64,000 nucleotides of DNA from Methanogenium organophilum. GTDB lineage: Archaea > Halobacteriota > Methanomicrobia > Methanomicrobiales > Methanomicrobiaceae. The position numbers and the translations under genes were made by a program. The notes under the pieces are model-generated. The model saw nothing but the letters and a program-made list of their open reading frames with translations. It was not told where the DNA came from and made no database searches. The stretch covers positions 1-64,000 of the forward strand of contig NZ_CP113361.1 in the NCBI RefSeq assembly GCF_026684035.1, given 5' to 3'. Shown here piece after piece: positions 43,665 to 64,000 of this stretch; within the stretch, counting starts at the first letter, position 1, and every line of letters starts with the position of its first letter.

Positions 43665-43784
43665 TTGAGAAAATGGGCGGGAAAAGTCACCGAACACAAA
43701 ATACGAAAAAACTATTCTTACGCCACATTCCGGCTACCTGTCAATGAATCATTAGATATTGTCGAGGAAGGAGATCATCATTGA
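43665..43784 (+). CDS. Short open frame just upstream of the integrase, possible frameshifted N-terminus
   Basis: The 39-codon frame from TTG 43665 reads with natural-looking composition (KVTEHKIRKNYSYATFRL, then PVNESLDIVEEGDHH) and ends at TGA 43782-43784. The integrase frame is open from before this point and reads EDVPRGYNIRFIG right after. Removing one T near 43781 would join the two into a single protein. It is either a small separate gene or the true N-terminus of the integrase cut off by a 1-nt frameshift. Ribosome-site spacing is poor. Confidence 0.35.
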   Translation: MRKWAGKVTEHKIRKNYSYATFRLPVNESLDIVEEGDHH

Positions 43785-44814
43785 GGACGTACCCAGAGGT
43801 TATAACATTCGGTTTATTGGTTGTAACAATAGGGTAGAGGCGTTGCAACACGACAGCAGCGCCAATATTCTAAATGAACGGATGAATACGTTTGAAAATA
43901 AAATTGATAGATTAACAGATGCTATTTTAGAAAATGAAGGCAATATAACAGATAAAACAAAAATTCAGATTGACCGAGCGGAAATTGAACTCGCGGCCTC
44001 TAACATGCCATGGAATCTAAATTTAAGGCAGATATACCGTTCTTTTCAAAACGACTTTCATGAGTATTTGATCAATGTAAGAAATGTTGCCGAAAAGAAA
44101 GCAAGATGGTATCTTGGTTCTTTAAACAGAATGCCAGATATATACACCATTCAGGATTTCATATCAGCCAAATTCACCGAAAACGGCATAAAAGCGTTTA
44201 GAAATTTTATCCACTTCCTTGAAGACATCAAAGGATATTCCCAAATAAATGACATAACTCCTGAAAAATGGTTAAAGCCTGCCAAGGTCAAACAAAGCAG
44301 ACCAAAAATTACCTTCATCAATGTTAGTGATATTGTCGAAGTGTTTCATTATTGCCCGGACAATCTCAAAACGTTCTATAAACTTCTGACATATACAGGC
44401 GGAAGAGGTGAACACATCAAAAATATGATTGATACCTTTGAGCCTGACAGAATAATCACATCATATGAATTCCCGGATGTATCATATTATCCAACATCTG
44501 AATTAAGGAAAGGCACTAAGAACACATATTTTGTATTCTTTCCCACTTCCTTCATTGACGAATTAAAAGAATACAAAATGCCATACAATCACATTGAAAC
44601 CGTTTACAGCAAAGTAAGGCACAATAACGTAAACACAAAGAATATCAGAAAATGGCACGCCAATATGCTCTTTAAAGAGGGAACACAGGAAAGTGTAGTT
44701 GATTACCTGCAAGGAAGAACACCTCAAAGTGTTGTTGCAAAACATTACGCTAATCTGAATATGCAGGCGGAACGATGTTACCATTCAATATTGCCTAAAT
44801 TCAATATTGCCTAA
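43759..44814 (+). CDS. Tyrosine recombinase (archaeal integrase)
   Basis: This frame of 351 codons has a catalytic domain in the C-terminal half: box I arginine in YTGGRGEHIKNM, a basic box KNIRKWHANMLFKEG, then LQGRTPQSVVAKHYANL with the nucleophilic tyrosine. The N-terminal half (residues about 60-165) resembles a core-binding domain. Such enzymes integrate archaeal plasmids and viruses, usually into tRNA genes. The start is unclear: TTG at 43759 or ATG at 43882. Its last 15 codons lie in a 16-bp tandem duplication. Confidence 0.8.
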   Translation: MSRKEIIIEDVPRGYNIRFIGCNNRVEALQHDSSANILNERMNTFENKIDRLTDAILENEGNITDKTKIQIDRAEIELAASNMPWNLNLRQIYRSFQNDFHEYLINVRNVAEKKARWYLGSLNRMPDIYTIQDFISAKFTENGIKAFRNFIHFLEDIKGYSQINDITPEKWLKPAKVKQSRPKITFINVSDIVEVFHYCPDNLKTFYKLLTYTGGRGEHIKNMIDTFEPDRIITSYEFPDVSYYPTSELRKGTKNTYFVFFPTSFIDELKEYKMPYNHIETVYSKVRHNNVNTKNIRKWHANMLFKEGTQESVVDYLQGRTPQSVVAKHYANLNMQAERCYHSILPKFNIA

Positions 44815-48645: not shown

Positions 48646-48897
48646 TCAATGCAGAACAGTTATATTAAATTTTTATTTTGTTCTGAGTGAATTCGCTGTG
48701 GTTTGAAGGGTTTCTCATCCATTGTATCCATTTGCTATGACAAACACCTTTCAGCATCAATCACTACTCCAGAACCATACTGGTTGGTCCGATAGTGTCA
48801 AACCAGGTAGGGAATGAAGAAGGGGTTAATATGAGATACATATCCGGCAGGCATTGCCGATTTTCCCCATTTACTCAATAAAATGCAAAATAATTGA

Positions 48898-51111
48898 CTA
48901 TATTCTCAACGCAAACCACGCATCCCGCAGCCCTACGTTATATTGGGCGATGAACATGGCGTCTCCCACATCGATCACACTGTTTGTGTGGACGTCGGTC
49001 TTGGTGAACTGGTCAGTCCCAGGTGAAGGTTTCGGGGTGAAACCGACCACCTCCTTGAGCACCCGCAGGGTGTCAGCCTGGTTTACCTCTCCATCGTTAT
49101 TGGCATCACCAAGCAGGGGTGAAGTAACTATGATAAAGTCGGGCCGTGTGAAGGTGTCCTCACCTCCATTCACCGCGAGGGTGACCGTATAGGTGCCATC
49201 AGCAGTATAGACGTGTACCGGGTTTTGTTCGTCAGAAGTTGCGCCATCGCCGAAGGACCAGTGCCATTCCGTCGGCCCGCCGGAAGAGCGATCGGTGAAC
49301 TGCACAGTGAGGGGGGCAGTTCCACTGGTGACGCCGGCGGTGAAGGCCGCCACCGGTGCAGCAACCGAACCACTGCCCTCCAGTTTCACCACCCAGTAAT
49401 CACCGCTGCCATGGTTCCCGCTCACGTCGCCGTCGGTTGAAGTGGTATAACCAGCCACTGCGTATCCGCCGTCCACGGTCTGGACGATGCTGCGTGCATA
49501 ATCCCAACTGCTCCCACTGAGACACTTCTGCCACACTATGGTACCTGTGGAACTGAGCTTGACCACCCAGTAATCATATCCGCCATGGTTCCCGCTCACG
49601 TCGCTGTCGTCTGAATAGGTATAACCAGCCACTGCGTATCCGCCGTCCGCGGTCTGGACGATGCTGCGTGCGCGATCATCATTGCTCCCACCGAGACACT
49701 TCTGCCACACTATGGTACCTGTGGAACTGAGCTTGACCACCCATGAATCATAGCCGTTATGTTTCCCGCTCACGTCGCCGTCGGCTGATAAGGTATAACC
49801 AGCCACTGCATACCCGCCGTCCGTGGTCTGGACGGTGCTGTATGCATAATCATCACTGCTCCCACCGAGACACTTCTGCCACTCAATACCGGGGACCCCT
49901 CCAGAGGCTGCTAGGCTGGCATCCACAGTACTCGTTGTTCCTGCAGTCACTGAGACTGGTGTCGTGTAGTTCACGTAACCGGCCTTCGTCAGGGTCACCA
50001 CGTGGTTGCCGGCTGCAATATTGTTTGCGAGTAAGGCACAGCCGGGGTTGGTTGTACCATAGTAGATGCTGTCAACATAGACTGAGGCATACGACGGATT
50101 TGAGGAGATTGAGATAGAACCTGTGGTAGCCTGTGGGTCTGCAGTGAGTGTCGCTGTCACATAGCTAACCTGGTTTGCATGTATCTGGATAGTGTTTGCC
50201 CATTCCTGGTAGCCAGGCATGGTGATCTCAAGAGTGTGTACACCCTCGGAGATTCCGCTGATGGTCCGTGGGGCTGTACCCTTGTATGCACCATCCAGGT
50301 AGATGTTTGCATTGGATGGGGTGCTGGAAACAGAAAGCGTACCATATGTCACTTCTGCTGTCAGGGACGCATAGGTGGTCTGGGTCTGTCCAGCGACGAT
50401 GTTGATCGTATCCTGGTAGTCCTTATATCCTGAATAGGTAAGCCTCAGGTTGTTATTTCCAGCAGGGAGGTTTGAGACCGTTTGTGGGGTTGTACCATAG
50501 TATACACTGTTCACATAGACTGCTGCACCGGATGGGGTGCTGGAAACAGAAAGCGTACCATATGTCACTTCTGCTGTCAGGGACGCATAGGTGGTCTGGG
50601 TCTGTCCGGCGACGATGTTGATCGTATCCTGGTAGTCCTTATATCCTGAATAGGTAAGCCTCAGGTCATTGTTCCCTGCAGGGAGGTTGGATACTGTGTG
50701 TGGGGTCGTACCATAGTAAACACTGTTCACATAGACTGCTGCACCGGATGGTGAGGAGCTTACCTGGATGTTTCAGGTTGTGGGTGTATTTGGGTTTAAC
50801 GTCAGGTAGACAGACTGGTGTTCTCCCGGACTTGGTGTTGCTGGGAGAGACTGTGATGCAGACGAGTAGCCGGACTTTTCCGCCCTCACGGTGCTGTATG
50901 GAGCTGCGGTGGAATACACTCCGACACTCAGGACTCCACCTGTGGTTACTCCCTTGTATTCTCCGTCAAAGTAGATGGAACAGCCATCCACATTGGTGTA
51001 GACGTCATACCATCCCTGGTCACCGCCTATGGTGGTCGCAGCCAGTGCAGCAGGGACTGCAGCAGCGATGATGAGCATGCTTATGATAAGCACGTAAAAT
51101 TTTCGTACCAT
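48898..51111 (-). pseudogene. Exported PEGA / repeat / PKD / dockerin-like surface protein with an in-frame TGA
   Basis: One frame runs from ATG 51111 to the stop at 48898 (about 737 codons) and is broken only by a TGA at 50773-50775. Order: signal peptide (FYVLIISMLIIAAAVPAALA), a PEGA-like domain, then several PEGA repeats (two nearly identical 72-residue copies), three IEWQKCLGGSSDDYA-type propeller-like repeats, a PKD domain (TAPLTVQFTDRSSGGPTEWHWSFGDG) and a dockerin-like C-terminus (LGDANNDGEVNQADTLRVLKE). A Gly codon GGA changed to TGA would explain the break. The downstream part could only be made by readthrough or restart at a Met in a PEGA repeat. Confidence 0.8.
50341..50772 (-). 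repeat. Two tandem 216-bp PEGA-coding repeats
   Basis: The segments 50341-50556 and 50557-50772 are nearly identical. Each codes a 72-residue unit (PSGAAVYVNSVYYGTTP...NLPAGNN...SGYKDYQDTINIVAGQTQTTYASL). A recent duplication inside the surface-protein gene is the likely origin. Confidence 0.9.
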
Positions 51112-53035: not shown

Positions 53036-53103
53036 ATATGATAACATATTCGGCAGGCATTGCCGATTCTCCCCATTTACTCTTAAAAAAGCAAAATAAT
53101 TTA

Positions 53104-54408
53104 CTATATTCTCAACGCAAACCACGCATTCCGCAGCCCTATGTTATATTGGGCGATGAAAATTGCATCTCCCACATCAATCACACCATTTGCATGGACG
53201 TCGGTCTTGGTGAACAAGTCGGTTCCAGGTGAAGGTTTCGGGGTGAAAACGACCACCTCCTTGAGCACCCGCAGGGTATCGGCTTGGTTTACCTCACCAT
53301 TGTCGTTTGCATCGCCAAGCAGGAGTGAAGTAACTCTGATGAAGTCAGACTGTGTGAATGTGTCTTCACCCCCATTCACCGCAAGGGTGACTGTATAGAT
53401 GCCATCGGAAGTATAGACATGTACCGGGTTTTGTTCGTTAGAGCAACATCGCCAAATGTCCAGTTCCAGGTGTCAGGAGCGCCCGTAGAGGTGTCAGTGA
53501 ACTGCACGGTGAGAGGAGCTTTGCCACCAGTAATATTGACATTGAAATTTGCTTCAAGTGGAGGAACGGTGGCAATGACGTATCCCAACTTTGTTTCAGT
53601 GTCACTTCCCGCGTCATTGGTTGAGGTAAGTGAGACCGTGTAGGTGCTTTCATCAGTATAGGTGTGGATTGGGTTCTGATCCGTTGAGATTGCACTGTCG
53701 CCGAAGGACCAGTTCCAAGTGTTGGATCGTTGGTGGAAGTATCCGTGAACTGGACGACAAGTGGAGCAGTGCCAATAGTAGGTGTGCCAGTGAAGGCGGC
53801 AACTGGTTCATGTGTCAGGGCGAAGGTTACCTCTTTCGTTTCACCGTCTGTCAGGTTAACTGCCCTATATTCCGGTGCGGAGGTATAACCTGCACGCACA
53901 ACGGTGATATTATACTCACCTGCAGGCTGATCACTGAAGATATGATTCGTAACTGCCGTGGTATTTACGCCATTCAGTGAGATTGCTGCACCCTCTGGAT
54001 CTGAATTGATAGTAAGGGTCACATTTCCAGTAGACTGCCACTGAAAAATAGGATACTGACACTTATATGTGAATACCCTCCATGGTTTCGAAGAATCAGC
54101 ATCATTACTGATGATACTTTCTGGCCAGTTAAGACCCTCTCCTTCTGTTCCGGTTATGAATGCATAGTCCCTGAATTTCGTTAAATCAGATATATGGGTG
54201 CCTAAACTGGTGCCGCTGTTAGTATAGCGATAAAAGTTCGTTATGATGCCAGCATCATTAACACCAACAAGACCGCCAGCAGAATAATCAGCAGTGGCAC
54301 TGCCCATTGCATAACAATTTGTTATGGTGCCAGCATCATTAACACCAACAAGACCGCCAGCAGAATAATCAGCAGTGGCATTGCCCGTTGCATAATATTT
54401 CGTTTTTA
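53104..54408 (-). pseudogene. Decayed GLUG / PEGA / PKD / dockerin-like surface-protein gene
   Basis: Reading down the minus strand: two GLUG repeats (ADYSAGGLVGVNDAG), a PEGA-like domain (TLTINSDPEGAAISLNGVNTT), two PKD domains and a dockerin-like C-terminus nearly the same as that of the 48898-51111 gene. Each PKD domain has an apparent 1-nt deletion (near 53717 and 53447), and the 5' end with the signal peptide is missing after about 54408. It is therefore both frameshifted and truncated. Confidence 0.8.
54241..54402 (-). repeat. Two tandem 81-bp GLUG repeats
   Basis: 54241-54321 and 54322-54402 differ at only a few bases and each codes 27 residues with AGGLVGVNDAG. They lie at the broken 5' edge of the surface-protein pseudogene. 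Confidence 0.9.
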
Positions 54409-54712: not shown

Positions 54713-57700
54713 TTACTCAAATTTCAGCTCTGGCAACCCATCCACAATATCAACCGTCTGCACACTGACATTGATAACACTGAGAAGCAAATCTAAGATA
54801 TAACGGGGATTACCTACTTCTTTAGCCCAATCATTTGGGTCATTTGTAATTCCGCTGTCTTTATGAGTGCTTATCTGGTATCGTTCCATTATCCATTCAA
54901 CGGCACTTTTTCCATTTACTATGTATTGATATGCCTTGTCTGGTATTTCTGTAATTGAGATGGTATTGTTGTAGATGATAGTGTCCTTTTGGCCTTTTTT
55001 CGGGAATTTCATCTTATTAACTATGAAATATTCACCTTCAGTGCCCGTGACCTTCACATCAGAGCATGGTGGAACAGTCTCATAATTCAGGTGAAGATTT
55101 GCTAATTTTCGCCCAGCTTTGCTAAAACTCCAAAAATCGGTAATATTTTCAACTAAAGGTATTCTGGGGAGCATCTTTTTTAGGTCGTTTGAAAAGGTCT
55201 TGCGGTAATTAGGACAATGAAGTATGCCGTAAACATAATAAAATATGTCTTCTTTGGTTAAGCTGGATTCTCCATACTGCTTTTTCGCCTTTTCAAAAAT
55301 AAAATCACTTACCCCATCTCGCTTGATATATTTATTCAATGGTTCGGGTTCGTCTGCTTCAAAAATTGTTTTCTGAGACGGATTTATTTCTCTGTTTTTC
55401 TTATTTCCTAATTCTTCATAATAATACAGGGGAAAACATTGAGTGCCAGCGTCAAGGCAATTTAAATCTGGGATTGCATCAGTAATTAGAGCACTATTCT
55501 CTTTATTTCCTCCAATTCCCGATACGCAAATTACCTTATTTTCACTTTCCGAAGTAGGGTAAAGTTTAGGGATTTGATTAACCATATTATTTAACTGGCG
55601 ATTAAAATAGAGAAATTGCTTAAAAAATGGTCTATAAATACTTGTTTGAACCGAATTACTATCAAAAGTATATTTTTTTAGTTGATTAATGTCCTTTTTA
55701 TGTTCTCTTGTCCAGCCAAATTTTGTTGAATCGTAACAAATAAAATCTTCTGCAATTAATTTTTTATTTTGAGATTTCTTTAAGGAAAATACATCTACTT
55801 GAGAATTATAAAAATTAATAGTCTCCTTTATATTTTGAATTAATTCACTTTTTTTGGAATTATAACACCAAGCATCTTTAGATGTAGCCAAACCCCTCGA
55901 ATAAAAAGGTACAAAATATGATTTATTAGTATCATTCCCTTTTTTGTCTCCAATGGAGAGATATTCATTAAAGGCATTATTTCGCTGATTAATCCAGTCA
56001 CCTTCTTTATTTGGTGTTAGAATATCCCAATCCATTTCAGGATTCTCTACTGTCCCATATTTTTTAATGATTGTCAGCTTTTCTTCTCTATTTAGGTAAT
56101 CTCCAATATCATGATAATAGATGGTAGTTTTTTTATTGTTTTTTTGTGGGTTTTTAACGAGTAACGTTATAGATACCGTGGTTCTTGATCCAGAACCAAA
56201 TATTTTCCCTCCTTCTTTTCTACTTAACTCTCCAGAGGTTCGTTGGTTTCCTCGCAAATTAAAGACATAAATGCTGTTAAATTCTTTTTCCAAATTCTTT
56301 CTAAAGCCATCATGAGCATTACCATCAAGCCAACTACCATTGGAAACAAAACAGATTATACCACCATGATTTTCATCCAGCCTGTCAGATGACCAGCGAA
56401 AAGCCTTGATATAAGCATCGTATAATGACTGTTTTAAATTGGCAGATGAATCTTTGGCATAAGTGTCAGTAATGCGTTTTTCCAGAATTGGATATGACAT
56501 ATTCTGAGCATTATCATTAGCTGACTTCTGCCCAACTGAATAAGGAGGATTGCTCATTATCACCGTTATGGGTGTCTTTTGTTGGGCATTTACTCGTTCA
56601 CTATTTTTAGGGAAGAATTCAGAAATAAGGTGCTCACCTTCTTTGAACTCGCCCAACTGGAAAGTATCTGTTAAGCAAATGCCGTCAAAACTCTGGTATT
56701 CCTTTGTCTCTGGTAATAAATCGTGATAGGTATTTTCGATGTTGATGGCAGCGATATAATATGCCAGCAAAACGAGTTCGTTGGCGTGTATTTCACTCAA
56801 ATATTTGCGTTGTAAATCTTCAGGGTTTATCAGTCCACTTTGAAGCAATCTGGTGATGAATGTGCCAGTGCCGGTAAATGGATCAAGGATATGAACATTT
56901 TCGTCGGTAAGACTTCTATCAAATTCATTCCGCAAAACATCATCAACAGAATGCACAATAAAGTCCACCACTTCCACAGGGGTGTACACAATACCAAGCT
57001 GTTCGACCATCTTTGGGAAAGCGGATTTAAAGAATTTGTCGTAAAGCTCGACGATTACACGCTGTCTGCCCTCAGCATTATCGATATTAGATACCCTCAT
57101 TTTCACGGATTCATAGAAACTATCCAAGCTTTGAGTATCTTTTTCAATCGCCTGGGTTTCTAACAAATCAATCATTCGTTGCATTGATTTTGATATCGGA
57201 TTATGTTCTGCAAAGGAATAGTCTTGAAAAATAGCTTCAAAAACAGGTTTGGTTATCATATGTTGTGATAACATCTCAATAGCCTGTTCCCTGGTAATTG
57301 AGGGATTAATATTTTGCTGAAGTCCTGATAAAAACTCATCAAAAGTATCTTTGATATCCTCATTCTTTACCAGATTGTTTATGCGGCCTATTTGCTTTTC
57401 AGCAATATCTGCGACACTTTTAGCCCATTGTTCCCAATAAAGGCGGTCCCCAACTTTATTGACCATGCGGGCAAAAACCACACTTTGTAGCTCTTCAAAC
57501 TGCAATTGTAATTGTGTTTGTATGGTTTTGTCTCTCTCTTCATCTTCGACAAAAACAGGATTCCCCTTATCATCAAAGCTGATTTCAGGTCTTCCAACTA
57601 AAATATTGGTAGGTTTTTTCTTATTAAGATCAATCTTGTTAACCGTGGCATTAAAACGGTCATCATGAGCCCTGAGAGCATTTAAAACAGTCCAGACGAC

Positions 57701-59584
57701 TTTATATCGTGAATTATCATTTAATGCCCTTTCAGCAGGAATATCGCTTGGAACGATTACAGGGATAATTATGTAGCCATACTTTTTCCCTTCAGAAAGC
57801 CTCATTACACGACCAACAGACTGAACAACATCAATCTGAGAATTACGTGCAGATAAAAACATCACCGCATCTAAAGAAGGGACATCTACACCTTCACTTA
57901 AACATCTGACATTCGTAAGTATCCGGCACTCTTCACTGTCTTCTTTCAACCACCCTAATAAATTGTCGCGGGCTGTTGCATTCATCGTTCCATCAACATG
58001 GCGAGACTTCACATTGAGAATATTTTCTTGTATATCTTCAGGTAAATCGGCAATATATTTCTCAGGAACGTCATTGAAATTGACTGTAATTTCTTTGCTG
58101 ACTCTAATTGTTTGACAAAAGGCTACAGCCCTTTTCATTGGAAGAGGATCTGTCTCTTTTATAATTCCTTCGTCACCTAAGATCTGTTTTGATAAAGCAT
58201 TGACACAACCTATGAGCTTGGAAGCATCATCGGCACTTATTGAATGCTCATCGTCAGCCACCATTTTTTGTACAGATGGAGAAATATCCTTATCACTTAA
58301 AGTAAGAATTAACACCTTATAGTCGGCAAGTAATCCTTCATCCACTGCCTGACCAAAACCAATTCTGTACATCTCTTGCCCATACAGAGTTTCATCATCC
58401 ATGGAGCAGAGGACAGCATCGTGTGTATCCGCCTTACTTTTACTATCATCACTAAAAATACGGGGCGTGGCGGTCATGTAAAGGCGTTTTTTTGCCTTTA
58501 AAAATTCATTATCATGTACCTTTACAAAAGCAGATTCATCATTTCCAGCTAAAGTAACCCCTGTAGTACGGTGGGCCTCATCACAAACAATAAGATCAAA
58601 AATATTTCCCAGAATTGTTTGCGCCTTTGAAATTACATCTATGCTTTGATAGGTCGAAAAAACAACGGTAAGTCCATCGGTCCCGTTTTTTCCGATGTGT
58701 TCAAATTGTCTTATTATATTGTCAACATTAGTACTCGCTGGTAAGGCTAAGTTTACCACACTCGTAGTATCTATATCATTTTTTATGCCTTTCTTCTTTG
58801 AAACTTCAGTGTCAGAGCAGATACAAACGGCATTGATGGGTTCCTCAGCATCATAATACCATTCAGTTAAAGTCTGCCCCATAAGAGCAATAGAAGGAAC
58901 TAAGACCAGAATTAAGCCTTTACCCTCTGTTTCGTTCTCAGCAATTTTTAAGGCGGTGTATGTCTTGCCGGTCCCACAAGCCATAATGAGCTTTCCTCTA
59001 TCTTCCTCCAGAAAATGCTCATGAACATTATCCATAGCTTCTTTTTGATGAGGTCTAATCGTTTTTTTGGCTAGTCGTGCCTTAGGACCAAATATTCCTT
59101 TATCCAGACTTTCCCAGTCAATAGGAGCAGTTTCTAAATCAAGCAGATTAATCCGTGAGACAGGGGGATTCTGATTGTGTAGAGCTTCTTCAGCGTTCTT
59201 CCCCCATTTATTTGTTGTAGATATCCAAAGACGATGTGAAAATCTGACTTTTTCACTATTTCCTGTTGAAAATTCTCGACTCGATGTTGCTAAAAAAGAA
59301 TCTACATCTCCTTTGCTAATCGGAGTGTCTTCTTGATAGCATTTACACTGAATTGCCCAATATTCGTTATCTTTCGTTAAAGCAACAATATCAATACCTG
59401 TATCAGAACCACCAAGTTCATGTTTAAATGGGAATTCATTCCATAACCAAACCGTTTCAAATTTATTTTCATATATCGGGTTTGTTAGTAAGTATCCCTG
59501 CATAAGTCGTTCAAAGCGATTGCCTTTCTCAACTTCTGAAAAAGAGATATCCCGATGTTTGTTTAAGATGGTTTGGAATTTCAT
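54713..59584 (-). CDS. Single-chain restriction-modification enzyme (Type ISP-like: nuclease, helicase, N6-adenine methyltransferase, target recognition)
   Basis: This 1623-residue protein has in order: an Mrr-type PD-(D/E)XK nuclease (GGSDTGIDIV...WAIQCKCY, residues about 59-83), an SF2 translocase with Walker A MACGTGKT (201-208), DEAH (335-338) and helicase motif VI region VQSVGRVMRL, then a gamma-class methyltransferase with ILDPFTGTGTF and NPPYSVG, then a long C-terminal target-recognition part. This is the layout of LlaGI/LlaBIII enzymes, about 1570 residues. The whole R-M system is one polypeptide. GC is much lower than in the core genome, which supports transfer. The start at 59584 (MKFQTILNKH) is chosen by homology; 59656 is possible. 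Confidence 0.9.
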   Translation of the reverse strand: MKFQTILNKHRDISFSEVEKGNRFERLMQGYLLTNPIYENKFETVWLWNEFPFKHELGGSDTGIDIVALTKDNEYWAIQCKCYQEDTPISKGDVDSFLATSSREFSTGNSEKVRFSHRLWISTTNKWGKNAEEALHNQNPPVSRINLLDLETAPIDWESLDKGIFGPKARLAKKTIRPHQKEAMDNVHEHFLEEDRGKLIMACGTGKTYTALKIAENETEGKGLILVLVPSIALMGQTLTEWYYDAEEPINAVCICSDTEVSKKKGIKNDIDTTSVVNLALPASTNVDNIIRQFEHIGKNGTDGLTVVFSTYQSIDVISKAQTILGNIFDLIVCDEAHRTTGVTLAGNDESAFVKVHDNEFLKAKKRLYMTATPRIFSDDSKSKADTHDAVLCSMDDETLYGQEMYRIGFGQAVDEGLLADYKVLILTLSDKDISPSVQKMVADDEHSISADDASKLIGCVNALSKQILGDEGIIKETDPLPMKRAVAFCQTIRVSKEITVNFNDVPEKYIADLPEDIQENILNVKSRHVDGTMNATARDNLLGWLKEDSEECRILTNVRCLSEGVDVPSLDAVMFLSARNSQIDVVQSVGRVMRLSEGKKYGYIIIPVIVPSDIPAERALNDNSRYKVVWTVLNALRAHDDRFNATVNKIDLNKKKPTNILVGRPEISFDDKGNPVFVEDEERDKTIQTQLQLQFEELQSVVFARMVNKVGDRLYWEQWAKSVADIAEKQIGRINNLVKNEDIKDTFDEFLSGLQQNINPSITREQAIEMLSQHMITKPVFEAIFQDYSFAEHNPISKSMQRMIDLLETQAIEKDTQSLDSFYESVKMRVSNIDNAEGRQRVIVELYDKFFKSAFPKMVEQLGIVYTPVEVVDFIVHSVDDVLRNEFDRSLTDENVHILDPFTGTGTFITRLLQSGLINPEDLQRKYLSEIHANELVLLAYYIAAINIENTYHDLLPETKEYQSFDGICLTDTFQLGEFKEGEHLISEFFPKNSERVNAQQKTPITVIMSNPPYSVGQKSANDNAQNMSYPILEKRITDTYAKDSSANLKQSLYDAYIKAFRWSSDRLDENHGGIICFVSNGSWLDGNAHDGFRKNLEKEFNSIYVFNLRGNQRTSGELSRKEGGKIFGSGSRTTVSITLLVKNPQKNNKKTTIYYHDIGDYLNREEKLTIIKKYGTVENPEMDWDILTPNKEGDWINQRNNAFNEYLSIGDKKGNDTNKSYFVPFYSRGLATSKDAWCYNSKKSELIQNIKETINFYNSQVDVFSLKKSQNKKLIAEDFICYDSTKFGWTREHKKDINQLKKYTFDSNSVQTSIYRPFFKQFLYFNRQLNNMVNQIPKLYPTSESENKVICVSGIGGNKENSALITDAIPDLNCLDAGTQCFPLYYYEELGNKKNREINPSQKTIFEADEPEPLNKYIKRDGVSDFIFEKAKKQYGESSLTKEDIFYYVYGILHCPNYRKTFSNDLKKMLPRIPLVENITDFWSFSKAGRKLANLHLNYETVPPCSDVKVTGTEGEYFIVNKMKFPKKGQKDTIIYNNTISITEIPDKAYQYIVNGKSAVEWIMERYQISTHKDSGITNDPNDWAKEVGNPRYILDLLLSVINVSVQTVDIVDGLPELKFE

Positions 59585-59794
59585 GTTTTGTTCAAGTCCC
59601 TCAATAAAAGTAACTTTGACATCAACGTATATATGCACGAAGATTTGGTCAGGCAAAATATTTTCAGTTATTCTTACATTATTCGACGATACGGCAGCTG
59701 TTTTAGAATTCCGTGTCGCAGGCTGAAAAGATGCTGTGCAAATCAGGTTGTAACGCCATCACAGAGGGTATAACAGTGGAAAAAATGAGGGGTA

Positions 59795-60130
59795 GTGTGG
59801 AAGAGATGGATTTGGTTCAAAGGAGTGAATCTCCCCCTCGAAGCCGATACCATCGGCGATGTCTCCGTTCAGGTCGCAACGGTCGCAGCATTCGGGACCG
59901 CTACCATTCATGTGATGAACGACGACGAACTCGCCACCGCGATCGGCGGAACACAGTCCCGTGACAACGCAAAGGACACCTTCTCCTGCAAGCTGAAGTG
60001 CCACGACGCGAATGGCGAGACGTACTATGTGACGATCTCCCGCACAAAGGTCCGCATCTCCTCGTATGCGGATGATGCCATCCGGACCACAGTTGAGACC
60101 TGGGCCGATGGGAAGCCGGAACTCGGCTGA
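59795..60130 (+). CDS. GC-rich hypothetical protein, possibly a gene fragment
   Basis: The frame of 111 codons has about 58 percent GC in its main part while the surrounding DNA is near 35-40 percent. VNLPLEADTIGDVSVQVATVAA, FGTATIHVMNDDELATAIGG and CKLKCHDANGETYYVTISRTKVRISSYADDAIRTTVE read as a real beta-rich protein. The likely starts are GTG (59795 or 59825). A second frame (MLCKSGCNAITEGITVEKMRGSVEEMDLVQ) leads into it from 59730, so a frameshifted longer gene is possible. No family recognised. Confidence 0.45.
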   Translation: MWKRWIWFKGVNLPLEADTIGDVSVQVATVAAFGTATIHVMNDDELATAIGGTQSRDNAKDTFSCKLKCHDANGETYYVTISRTKVRISSYADDAIRTTVETWADGKPELG

Positions 60131-60664
60131 ACGGCCCGATGGATACCAGAAACAGGGGTAATATCCCCCTATTTTGAATGAAAACGGGGGGCAGAATTCT
60201 TCCCGTTTCCAACACCTTGTGGCCACTAAAAAATACGGCTATTTTGTGCGTTATTATTATTTTTAACTCATTATTTCGGGTTATTGCGGGGGTGCAATTG
60301 GTGCCTTATGTGAGAGGATGTATTGCCCGGATGTAAGTGCGATCGGCCCACTCCGGCCGTCTGTGTGGACGTTTTTTCGAGGAACGGGTTTATTTTGGGG
60401 TCTATTTAAGCTTTACTTAACCCCTAGGCGGAAATTTTGCCCCACATGAAGCGTATCATAATCCGCAACGGATCAATACAGTACCGAAGGTGAAATGGTC
60501 GTGAGTCGGTACTTTCTGGAATTGCTGCCATTAGAAATATGCATATATTTTTGTCAGATAATTTTAGATTTCAAAATAGGAATTATGGATTAAACAAAAA
60601 GACACAGAAATAAACAAAAAAGGATAGTTTTCTGGTGAGTTCAGGTTATTGGAATAATCTGCTA
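60131..60664. other. Intergenic region, no gene seen apart from the start of the direct repeat
   Basis: About 400 nt of mixed GC without a supported ORF. The left copy of the direct repeat begins at 60538. Confidence 0.5.
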
Positions 60665-60717
60665 TTATCCTTTTTTCTGAGATACTATTTTTCCACTGCT
60701 GTCATACAGGTAGGCAG
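60538..60717. repeat. Left copy of a 180-bp direct repeat flanking the DpnII-type system
   Basis: It matches 63075-63260 with small indels and substitutions, by eye roughly 85 percent identity. Shared landmarks are TATGCAT, TTTTGTCAGATAA, AATTATGGATTAAACAAAAA, GACACAGAAAT, TATTATCCTTTTTTCTGAGA and GTCATACAGGTAGGCAG. The coding end of a lamin-tail domain lies in both copies. Confidence 0.9.
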
Positions 60718-60763
60718 TTTCAGCTTTCTTGGGGTAATCTATTGTGTGTCTTTGTATCTTCAT
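60665..60763 (-). pseudogene. C-terminal remnant of a lamin-tail-domain protein
   Basis: The minus strand codes AETAYLYDSSGKIVSQKKG then TAA, almost the same as the end of the intact gene at 63208 (DTAYLYDSSGKLVSQKKG). Homology stops after about 20 codons; the upstream MKIQRHTIDYPKK reads on in frame but does not match. It is a scar of a paralogous gene whose body is gone. Confidence 0.75.
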
Positions 60764-60989
60764 TCAATGTAAATCTACTATTTTGCCCGTGGGTATTATT
60801 ATTTGGAATAGAGAGGAATAGCATTGCAAAATTGTAGCAATCTGTAATATTGTGTATCTATAGTTAAATTGAATTGAGGTATAAATAAGATGAAAAATCT
60901 CATTATAATTCAGTATAAGAAATTTGAACGCTGGCAGGGCATATTTCGATGAATGTGCCACATCGCCAAAATAAAAATCGCAAACAAAT

Positions 60990-61907
60990 TTAAATAATAT
61001 TTCCTAATATGCCCTCACTTATCATTTTTAGATTAAAAATGTAATTGTTGTGATTAAAACTCTCTTCTAATGGTCTTTTTGTCGTCAGCCAGCCTTTGCC
61101 ATCGGTAATCCAAATCAATTCGATATTTTGTTTCTGCAATTCATCGAACAATTGTCGAAATTCACCACAAACAGATTTTAATTTTGATCCGCCACCATTG
61201 TAGAAATTAGATTCGATAATAATGATATTCCCAGTTTTTTTGTTATAAATAGCAAAATCAAACTTACGAGACGATTTCTCATACTTAATTTTTTTTCCCC
61301 ATTTTTGCATAATCTTCTGTGGCGTGGCTTCAGATAGATAATCCAAATTTTTATTTTTTTGAACGAAATCTAAAATAAATACCTCTAAGATATTTTCCAT
61401 CAATTTCCCTCCTCGATTCTTTCTTCCATTTGAGTCGAGGCCTACTTCCACGCCAAAGGTATAATCAACAAAATTTTTGATTTTTTCACCACTGAACAAA
61501 TCAATTAATCCACTTTGTTCTATGAAATTGAAGTATTTCGCTGCTGATGAATAATCCAGAGAGGCCTTTTGGGAAAAATCGAACTCTAAGTATGACATAT
61601 CATTATTTTGGTAATCCTTTATTATTTGAAGTGAATTCTCTCTTACCGCTAATATAATCGGTAAAACCTTTATTGTGTTAGGATATTTACGAACTAGATT
61701 TATGAAATCATTTTCAAGATTTCTCGAACCAATAAGAGAATTTAAGATATTCAATTCAACTTTAATATCCACCATGTTTCCATTGACTTTTTCCCAATTA
61801 ACGAAATAATCCCATACTTTGATTGATGGTTTTAAATTTTCGAGGAAAAATGTAAATGTTTCAGATTCTTGGACATTATTCTCTCTATAGTAAGGTATGT
61901 ATTTCAT
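60990..61907 (-). CDS. DpnII-family Type II restriction endonuclease (predicted GATC cutter)
   Basis: This 305-residue protein has the DpnII family layout: VEVGLDSNGRKNRGGKLMENIL in the middle, then the nuclease core KFDFAIYNKKTGNIIIIESNFYNGGGSKLKSVCGEFRQL with the D...ExN-type site. Family members cut GATC. It overlaps the methyltransferase gene by 23 nt and follows it on the same strand, so the protective methylase is translated first. Very low GC. Confidence 0.92.
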   Translation of the reverse strand: MKYIPYYRENNVQESETFTFFLENLKPSIKVWDYFVNWEKVNGNMVDIKVELNILNSLIGSRNLENDFINLVRKYPNTIKVLPIILAVRENSLQIIKDYQNNDMSYLEFDFSQKASLDYSSAAKYFNFIEQSGLIDLFSGEKIKNFVDYTFGVEVGLDSNGRKNRGGKLMENILEVFILDFVQKNKNLDYLSEATPQKIMQKWGKKIKYEKSSRKFDFAIYNKKTGNIIIIESNFYNGGGSKLKSVCGEFRQLFDELQKQNIELIWITDGKGWLTTKRPLEESFNHNNYIFNLKMISEGILGNII

Positions 61908-62772
61908 CTGTTTTCACCGGATAATTAGTAACAATGACTTCTGTCACTCCAGTTCTTTTACTTGCGTCACTATTTATTGATCGATTTGCTCGTATTACTG
62001 AGATATTGAAGTCCCCATAGAGTTCATGGATGGCTGGTGCATCAGAATTACTCAGCATTACAGAAACCCCTTTTTCGGCAAGGCGTTTATATGTTTCAGC
62101 AAGTCTTACCTGATCGTCATAAGAGAAACCATTTGAGGTGTAATTAGTAAAATGTGCTGTATCAGATAGAGGCATGTAAGGCGGATCGAAATATACAAAA
62201 TCCCCTTCCTTTGCATCAGCAACTACAACCTCAAAATCTTCATTCCGAATATTTACTTTCTGGAATAACTGACTCAAGCCATGAATCATTTTATTGTCAG
62301 CCAATTTGGGGTTTTTATATCGACCAAAAGGCACATTGTAGTTATTTTTTTTATTGACACGCCAAAGACCGTTGAAACAGTGACGATTTAAATAAATAAA
62401 AATTGAAGCGCGTTCAATATCAAATTCATCTTTGGCTTTTATTTCATTGAAGTGATCACGGAACTGGTAAAATATTTCTTGGTCATTTTGATATTTCCCC
62501 GATTGTAGTTCCTGAAGGAGATCTTCGGGCGATTTTTTAATTACATTATATAAATTAATTAATTCCAAATTAATATCTGAAATTATCGCTTTGTTGATTT
62601 TTTTAGAATTATTCAATTCAATTAGTAAAGCAGCACCACCAATAAATGGTTCATAATATACATCCCAATTTATTGGCAATCTTTTTACAATTTCGGGAAG
62701 TATTTGCCGTTTTCCGCCTGCCCATTTAACTACCGGTCGTAGCATCACAAATAAGGTTATCCTTGAATCCAT
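61885..62772 (-). CDS. Dam-type DNA adenine methyltransferase (predicted GATC)
   Basis: This 295-residue alpha-class N6-adenine methyltransferase has the SAM motif PVVKWAGGKRQIL, YYEPFIGGAALLIEL, the catalytic DPPY (GDFVYFDPPYMPLSDTAHFTNYT) and the Dam-specific RHCFNGLWRVNKKNNYNVPFG. Paired with a DpnII endonuclease it would protect GATC sites. The start is at 62772, or 62745 if the first nine residues are not made. Confidence 0.94.
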   Translation of the reverse strand: MDSRITLFVMLRPVVKWAGGKRQILPEIVKRLPINWDVYYEPFIGGAALLIELNNSKKINKAIISDINLELINLYNVIKKSPEDLLQELQSGKYQNDQEIFYQFRDHFNEIKAKDEFDIERASIFIYLNRHCFNGLWRVNKKNNYNVPFGRYKNPKLADNKMIHGLSQLFQKVNIRNEDFEVVVADAKEGDFVYFDPPYMPLSDTAHFTNYTSNGFSYDDQVRLAETYKRLAEKGVSVMLSNSDAPAIHELYGDFNISVIRANRSINSDASKRTGVTEVIVTNYPVKTDEIHTLL

Positions 62773-62775
62773 TTA

Positions 62776-62814
62776 TTTGTGTGTAAAACCACATGCTTCT
62801 AATTGGCACACAAA
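62776..62814. promoter_or_regulatory. Inverted repeat just upstream of the dam-like gene
   Basis: TTTGTGTG (62776-62783) and CACACAAA (62807-62814) form perfect 8-bp arms around 23 nt, between a TATA-like AATAAATATTTC on the minus strand (about 62818-62829) and the ATG at 62772. It could be an operator or a leader hairpin that tunes expression of the R-M pair. Confidence 0.45.
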
Positions 62815-62829
62815 ATGAAATATTTATTA

Positions 62830-63074
62830 GAATGATAATTTGGTAAGATTGATGGTAACACCTTTCCGCCTGTATATTTTGATTGGCGTAATGTTTTTCA
62901 GCAACACTTTCCTATATCCCTTCCTTAACCAGCATATTGTTATGCATTTTTAGAGATTATATACTAGTTCTCACCCAAATCCCAACCACTACACCACCCA
63001 CGCTGCAAGGGCCCCCACAATCCCACTGGCCCGTTTTTCTCCCCGGCGCCCCCTTCTCAGCCTGCCATTCAAAG
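62830..63074. other. Intergenic region, no gene seen
   Basis: AT-rich to about 62985, then a short GC-rich patch (62990-63065) rich in CCC words. No ORF with support. Confidence 0.5.
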
Positions 63075-63260
63075 TATGCATCTATTTTTTATTTTGTCAG
63101 ATAATTTAAGATTTCCAAATGGGAATTATGGATTAAACAAAAAGACACAGAAATACACAAAAAATGATAGTTTTCTGGCGAGTTCAAATTATTGGGATAA
63201 TATGTTATTATCCTTTTTTCTGAGAGACTAATTTTCCACTACTGTCATACAGGTAGGCAG
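63075..63260. repeat. Right copy of the 180-bp direct repeat
   Basis: It matches 60538-60717 (see there). This copy includes the genuine 3' end and downstream region of the 63208 gene, so it is probably the source and the left copy the derived or remnant one. Confidence 0.9.
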
Positions 63261-64000
63261 TATCACCATCATTGTTCCAGACATTTTTCCCATCCCAGTA
63301 GAGTTCAGTGGAAGTGTCTGTTCCCTTTTCGGAATGTAAGGTTACTGTTGATTCGGATACAAGTGTAATCGATGGAAATGTGTAGGTGTGTTTAGCATCA
63401 TCATCCTGAATGTACCATCCTTTGAGATTCACAGATGACCCCTTATTTGTTATCTTCACCCATTCATCTTCAAGTGAGATTCCACTTATGTAAACATCGG
63501 ACGTGCCAGAGGTCACTGGAGTTGGATTAGATGTTGTTGGTATAGTAGTTGGAATGGTTGTGGATATGGTAGTTGAATCAGTATGCACTGGAGTTGGTAT
63601 AGTCGTTGTCACAGCAGAATTGTATGTCCCTGTACCACCTGTGAAAAATATAGCATAGACTGGGTAATGATCTGAAACATCCTCTGTTTCATCCTGTGTA
63701 AGTCCATATTGAGTGTCATACCTGAACACTCCTGCATCACCAGTAAAGTAAGGTGTCACAGATTTTGTGAGAACTATTCGATCATATGTGTAATCAGTAG
63801 ATTTTGTGGTCGTGTCCACATCATTACCAATAATCCATTCGTACTCACTACTCGTCATGGAAGATGAGCAATCCTCTTTGAAATATGAACCATCAGCATT
63901 GAAATCCCCCATTACAATGACATCCTGGTCGTAGGGGGTATGACTTACAGCATAATCCACAACAGCATCAAGTGAATTTATTTCTTCTGTGGCTTCATCG
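63208..64000 (-). CDS. Exported endonuclease/exonuclease/phosphatase-like protein with a lamin-tail domain (5' end beyond the window)
   Basis: About 263 C-terminal codons are present. The first part is the end of a DNase I-like domain: VIVMGDFNADGSYF (catalytic D, N), YTYDRIVL and DVSDHYPVYAIF with the SDH motif. A Thr/Pro/Ser linker follows (TTTIPTPVHTDSTTIST...), then a lamin-tail domain (DVYISGISLEDEWVKITNKGSSVNLKGWYIQDDD... ending SGKLVSQKKG). Such proteins are usually secreted nucleases or phosphatases. The gene starts to the right of 64000. Confidence 0.87.
   Translation of the reverse strand, partial: DEATEEINSLDAVVDYAVSHTPYDQDVIVMGDFNADGSYFKEDCSSSMTSSEYEWIIGNDVDTTTKSTDYTYDRIVLTKSVTPYFTGDAGVFRYDTQYGLTQDETEDVSDHYPVYAIFFTGGTGTYNSAVTTTIPTPVHTDSTTISTTIPTTIPTTSNPTPVTSGTSDVYISGISLEDEWVKITNKGSSVNLKGWYIQDDDAKHTYTFPSITLVSESTVTLHSEKGTDTSTELYWDGKNVWNNDGDTAYLYDSSGKLVSQKKG

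Follow-up and report, generated by a model that had tools for sequence, protein, structure and literature searches.

Some restriction systems are described as duplicating a long and variable stretch of target DNA, on the order of 100 bp, when they insert (reviewed in PMC3874152), and unequal crossing-over is expected to produce tandem amplification of such repeat-bounded forms (PMC3031569). Here we describe a DpnII-type (GATC) Type II pair from the archaeon Methanogenium organophilum, located in a window of 64,000 nucleotides that corresponds to positions 1 to 64,000 of contig NZ_CP113361.1. The dam-dpnII genes have direct repeats of about this length or longer on both sides. With direct repeats of about 100-200 bp around the pair, the locus is reminiscent of the long-target-duplication systems (Nobusato 2000 and Furuta 2010, in so far as PMC3874152 and PMC3031569, which cite them, portray these cases), but the two copies in the window are 10% diverged and the right copy appears to be original on both sides. 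A unit bounded by direct repeats also recalls the tandem amplification of restriction genes between such repeats (PMC3031569), although today the genes occur just once. The locus resembles both kinds of case and is proof of neither.

The dam-dpnII pair and its archaeal counterparts

The DpnII restriction endonuclease gene (60990-61907, minus strand, 305 aa) and the Dam-type adenine methyltransferase gene (61885-62772, minus strand, 295 aa) are both intact and, as in described DpnII-type systems, adjacent and on the same strand, where they overlap by 23 bases. The endonuclease matches PF04556 (E=9.7e-92, 307.6 bits) over positions 2-276 of the 278 in the profile, which places it in the DpnII family, and is assigned to REase_II by PADLOC. 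The adjacent gene matches PF02086 (E=7.8e-69) and TIGR00571, as a Dam-type N6-adenine methylase should, and the best solved-structure match of its product is 2dpm, the DpnII 1 methylase (PDB). Judging from these families, the two genes would form an ordinary GATC restriction-modification pair, predicted to methylate and to cut GATC. The window contains 241 GATC sites against 244 expected, i.e. GATC is not depleted. Directly to the left of the pair, a 1647-aa single-chain Type ISP restriction-modification enzyme is encoded at 54713-59656, so that two restriction systems stand side by side.

DpnII is rare among related archaea. A search of 198 further genomes of the order gave one other (G107, 42% identical), and a sample of 394 genomes from the phylum added G357 (62%) and G258 (32%). 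A dam gene adjoins DpnII in both G107 and G357, and the two genomes also have a gene for an N6/N4-type methylase next to the pair, whereas the pair of the window has no DpnA-like second methylase alongside. The stretches from G107, G357 and G258 contain no LTD (lamin-tail) gene. The comparison of flanking repeats took in G107 and G357 (G258 lies at a contig end) and revealed no direct repeat of comparable kind, with the flank of G357 limited to 0.9 kb on one side. The initial annotation had named a pair without repeats in relatives as evidence against its proposal that pair and repeat travel as a module. G107 and G357 carry such pairs and refute the proposal as a general rule, but their DpnII proteins are at most 62% identical to that of the window, and the history of the window's own locus is not refuted by them. 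Searches of viral and genome contig collections found no relatives of the pair or of the repeat.

The direct repeat and the LTD nuclease gene

Direct repeats had initially been placed around the pair at 60538-60717 and 63075-63260. They are real and slightly wider at the left edge, extending over 60525-60722 (left copy) and 63062-63265 (right copy), with 179 of 198 aligned bases identical, 19 different, one 6-base indel and a longest run of identity of 34 bp. The match has E = 1e-66 or better in a within-genome search, which rules out chance. A genome-wide search of the 2.65 Mb returned these two copies only, and a dispersed genomic repeat was rejected on that count. Moreover, the repeat sequence was not found in the 60 relatives searched, nor in 28 genomes of the family, and no second locus came to light. 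An assembly error is unlikely, as the genome is a single contig and the copies have diverged from each other. The repeat is not an insertion sequence with a transposase, of the kind that would bound a composite transposon, but a gene tail and a noncoding flank present twice in the genome; it has no Rfam match. A role of GATC cleavage in setting the repeat ends was likewise rejected, with one site at 60471, none in the right flank and no pattern.

Both copies lie on the minus strand and, read in that direction, begin with the final 19 codons of an LTD gene, for which the consensus of the two is (D/E)TAYLYDSSGK(L/I)VSQKKG followed by a stop, and continue with about 140 bases of 3' flank. The lamin-tail codons had been recognised correctly in each copy: the right copy belongs to an intact gene whose stop, at 63208, lies within the repeat, and the left copy is a stub of 19 codons, ETAYLYDSSGKIVSQKKG plus stop, without a gene body. 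The intact gene occupies 63208-64000 of the window on the minus strand and starts at contig 64608. It encodes a 466-aa protein (PF00932 and PF03372) composed of an endonuclease/exonuclease/phosphatase domain and a C-terminal LTD domain, and the N-terminus, on reading, appears to resemble a lipoprotein signal. A paralogue of this LTD nuclease is found in the same genome at contig 382.7 kb (L018:1706-4789); about 0.9 kb separate its start from a gene for an N6/N4 DNA methylase. The window also contains a further gene-tail direct repeat of 300 nt (48838-49137 and 53044-53343, 89%), which covers the terminal parts of two repeat-rich genes of surface type together with their flank.

Across the 19 codons, the tails of the two copies differ at four places, two of the changes being silent and two conservative. 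These changes look coding-like and, like the presence of a second LTD nuclease gene elsewhere in the genome, are consistent with a history in which two LTD genes once stood in tandem, the second of which was lost, apart from its tail, to a deletion and the insertion of dam-dpnII. However, four changes are too few to show selection, no tandem LTD gene pair was seen among the relatives searched, and no LTD gene body was found hidden in 60725-60989. We consider a lost tandem gene improbable.

Gene remnants and the slot downstream of the XhlA-like gene

The pair had been described as sitting exactly between the repeats. It does lie between them, but not exactly: the left copy is separated from dpnII by about 265 bp of AT-rich DNA without a match, and the interval from dam to the right copy is occupied by two minus-strand remnants. 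The first (62837-62958) is the degenerate C-terminus of a PF16795 archaeal tyrosine integrase, with one stop and a 12-residue deletion (tblastn E=7e-11), and is 84% identical over 76 bp to window 44726-44801. An intact PF16795 archaeal integrase gene at window 43759-44814 is its close relative. The second (62971-63087) is the 3' remnant of an XhlA-like gene, 88% identical over 57 bp to the XhlA of L077; it enters the right repeat copy, surely up to 63067 and probably up to 63087. The term XhlA-like is only a label, chosen because the protein has a polar part and, at its C-terminus, a hydrophobic helix, and the gene matched no Pfam or PHROGs model.

An integrase remnant about 100 bp from the right repeat, and a target at the 3' end of a gene that stays intact, could point to an eroded integrative island, in which the PF16795 integrase would have put an element at the end of the LTD gene and the repeats would be attL and attR. 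Yet the remnant is cut beside that of the XhlA-like gene, which leaves its tie to the dam-dpnII unit uncertain, and the unit holds this degenerate C-terminus as its only integrase, i.e. no functional one. The repeat, about 200 bp long and diverged, with no identity beyond 34 bp, lacks a sharp core, there is no tRNA nearby, and the surroundings of the intact relative at 43.8 kb showed no clear att repeats. This origin is very improbable in our view.

The outer left flank of the repeat is also gene rubble. A short remnant at 59681-59778 (plus strand) matches another element copy in the same genome (L080; 79.6% over 98 bp) and, on reading of the translations, is probably the end of the primase-like gene of that copy. 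At 59836-60132 (plus strand) lies a gene X of the genus-wide Cdc6/XhlA element family that has lost its 5' part; the remaining 3' half is 88.9% identical over 297 bp to an intact gene in G002 (L077:7378-7992). In that genome, gene X is followed by a defence-type pair of an AAA_21 ATPase gene and a RloB-like gene (L077:8587-10458), and, in another family of the order, G107 has a gene-X-like gene (L083:13437-13913) at a distance of about 6 kb from its DpnII pair. Finally, 60338-60467 (minus strand; 84.7% over 131 bp to L076) holds the last codons of a gene for a small hydrophobic protein, with its 3' flank, from a family dispersed genus-wide. Nested insertions, with this stub and another at contig 64862-64964 as an older duplication, were rejected, because the left stub is nearer to a G002 copy (85%, 131 bp) than to the right stub (71%, 103 bp); to judge by these matches, the two stubs belong to a dispersed family.

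In relatives, the XhlA-like gene is flanked by a Cdc6-type ATPase on one side and by gene X on the other. It is present in 22 of the 27 relatives searched, in several copies in some, and the arrangement is multi-copy in this archaeal family. Directly downstream, some copies have the ATPase (e.g. L115-L118), and others, in a small sample read by eye, a Fic/Doc, zeta-toxin-like kinase, ParE-like or transglutaminase-like gene, the ParE-like match scoring below the curated cut-off. In the window it is dam-dpnII that sits downstream of the XhlA-like remnant, and a natural reading, resting on the same small sample, is that the pair is cargo in this slot. Since related copies hold toxin-type and other genes there, the presence of a restriction pair can be explained without the repeat. 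The slot (L093-L098, L115-L118) could be a cargo hotspot. The stretch at 59.8-63.3 kb is made up largely of gene 3' ends with their 5' sides cut. A broader view, that gene 3' ends with terminators are preferred joints in this archaeal lineage and that dam-dpnII is cargo moved or amplified through duplicated tails, seems to us quite improbable.

The right copy and the history of the locus

A target duplication leads to a simple expectation: the inner sides of both copies belong to the insert and the outer sides to the old target. At the right copy, the inner side was compared with XhlA-like genes. Of the 16 bases of TGGCAGGCTGAGAAGG, whose first six belong to the repeat, 15 match the XhlA homologue in L064. 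Upstream, the right copy AGATGCATACTTTGA and the homologue AGATGCAGACTTCGA match collinearly after a 24-base in-frame deletion (p 0.003-0.007 against shuffled sequence), while for the left copy alone the match to XhlA is within chance (p 0.2-0.4, shuffled sequence). The XhlA remnant thus appears to extend into the right repeat, by six bases surely and by about 25 probably. The right copy, which runs on into the LTD gene at one end and into the XhlA remnant at the other, appears to stand in its original context on both sides, and the left copy, which probably includes the first 24 bp or so of an XhlA remnant and is cut abruptly on both sides, appears to be the fragment of a duplicate. The continuity of the right copy with a remnant that lies in the interior of the unit argues against a simple duplication of a target site or of an att site. 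A chance microhomology of 6-8 bases at the joint is possible, and would bring the insertion models back.

Among these models, the restriction unit may have inserted with a long target duplication, or a circle with a diverged LTD tail may have integrated homologously; the empty site would then be the LTD flank joined to 60338-60524. The geometry speaks for such an insertion, with about 200 bp repeated on either side of a restriction pair and the LTD gene left intact, as do the long target duplications described for restriction systems (PMC3874152, PMC3031569). On the other hand, besides the continuity of the right copy, the 10% divergence means that the event is old or the donor different, and no empty site with one repeat copy was found in the 60 relatives and 28 family genomes, with one genome per species. 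An insertion of either kind is unlikely, though it deserves to be taken seriously. With no empty site and no second locus found, and with the right copy continuous with the XhlA remnant, the initial proposal that the pair arrived by recombination at duplicated tails lacks support.

The history we favour, tentatively and at somewhat under an even chance, is that the repeat goes back to an old local duplication of the junction between LTD tail and XhlA, with the pair an ordinary resident among element remnants. A unit of about 2.5 kb, comprising the LTD tail, XhlA remnant, integrase remnant, dam and dpnII, would have been duplicated in tandem, starting in the last LTD codons and ending after dpnII, with a new joint just right of 60722. 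The second copy would then have been lost from the XhlA-like codons onward, its first 200 bp being kept and fused to the sequence left of 60525. A shorter templated copy of 200 bases would give the same trace. The order of these events is one we infer from the geometry alone. In favour of a duplication, there are two copies only, none of the relatives searched has the repeat, the right copy enters the XhlA remnant and the left one is cut on both sides, and the dam-DpnII loci of G107 and G357 lack flanking repeats. Against it, the XhlA part of the repeat is short, the left copy alone does not match XhlA beyond chance, and there is no outgroup with the locus; a search to the left of the repeat turned up nothing of a second dam-dpnII copy.

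Under a local duplication, the repeats need not have brought the pair in, and support is lacking for a module that the repeat would carry or delimit. As had been suggested, recombination between the copies could in principle lead to loss of the unit: the repeats could serve today as a substrate for rare deletion of the whole interior by homologous recombination, which would leave the LTD gene intact. The locus calls for caution more generally, since a repeat can enclose a restriction pair without being its vehicle. It is a rare archaeal DpnII locus whose flanks still hold traces of how the pair came to lie among relic elements and, if deletion between the repeats does take place, it would offer a handle on the gain and loss of restriction genes in archaea.
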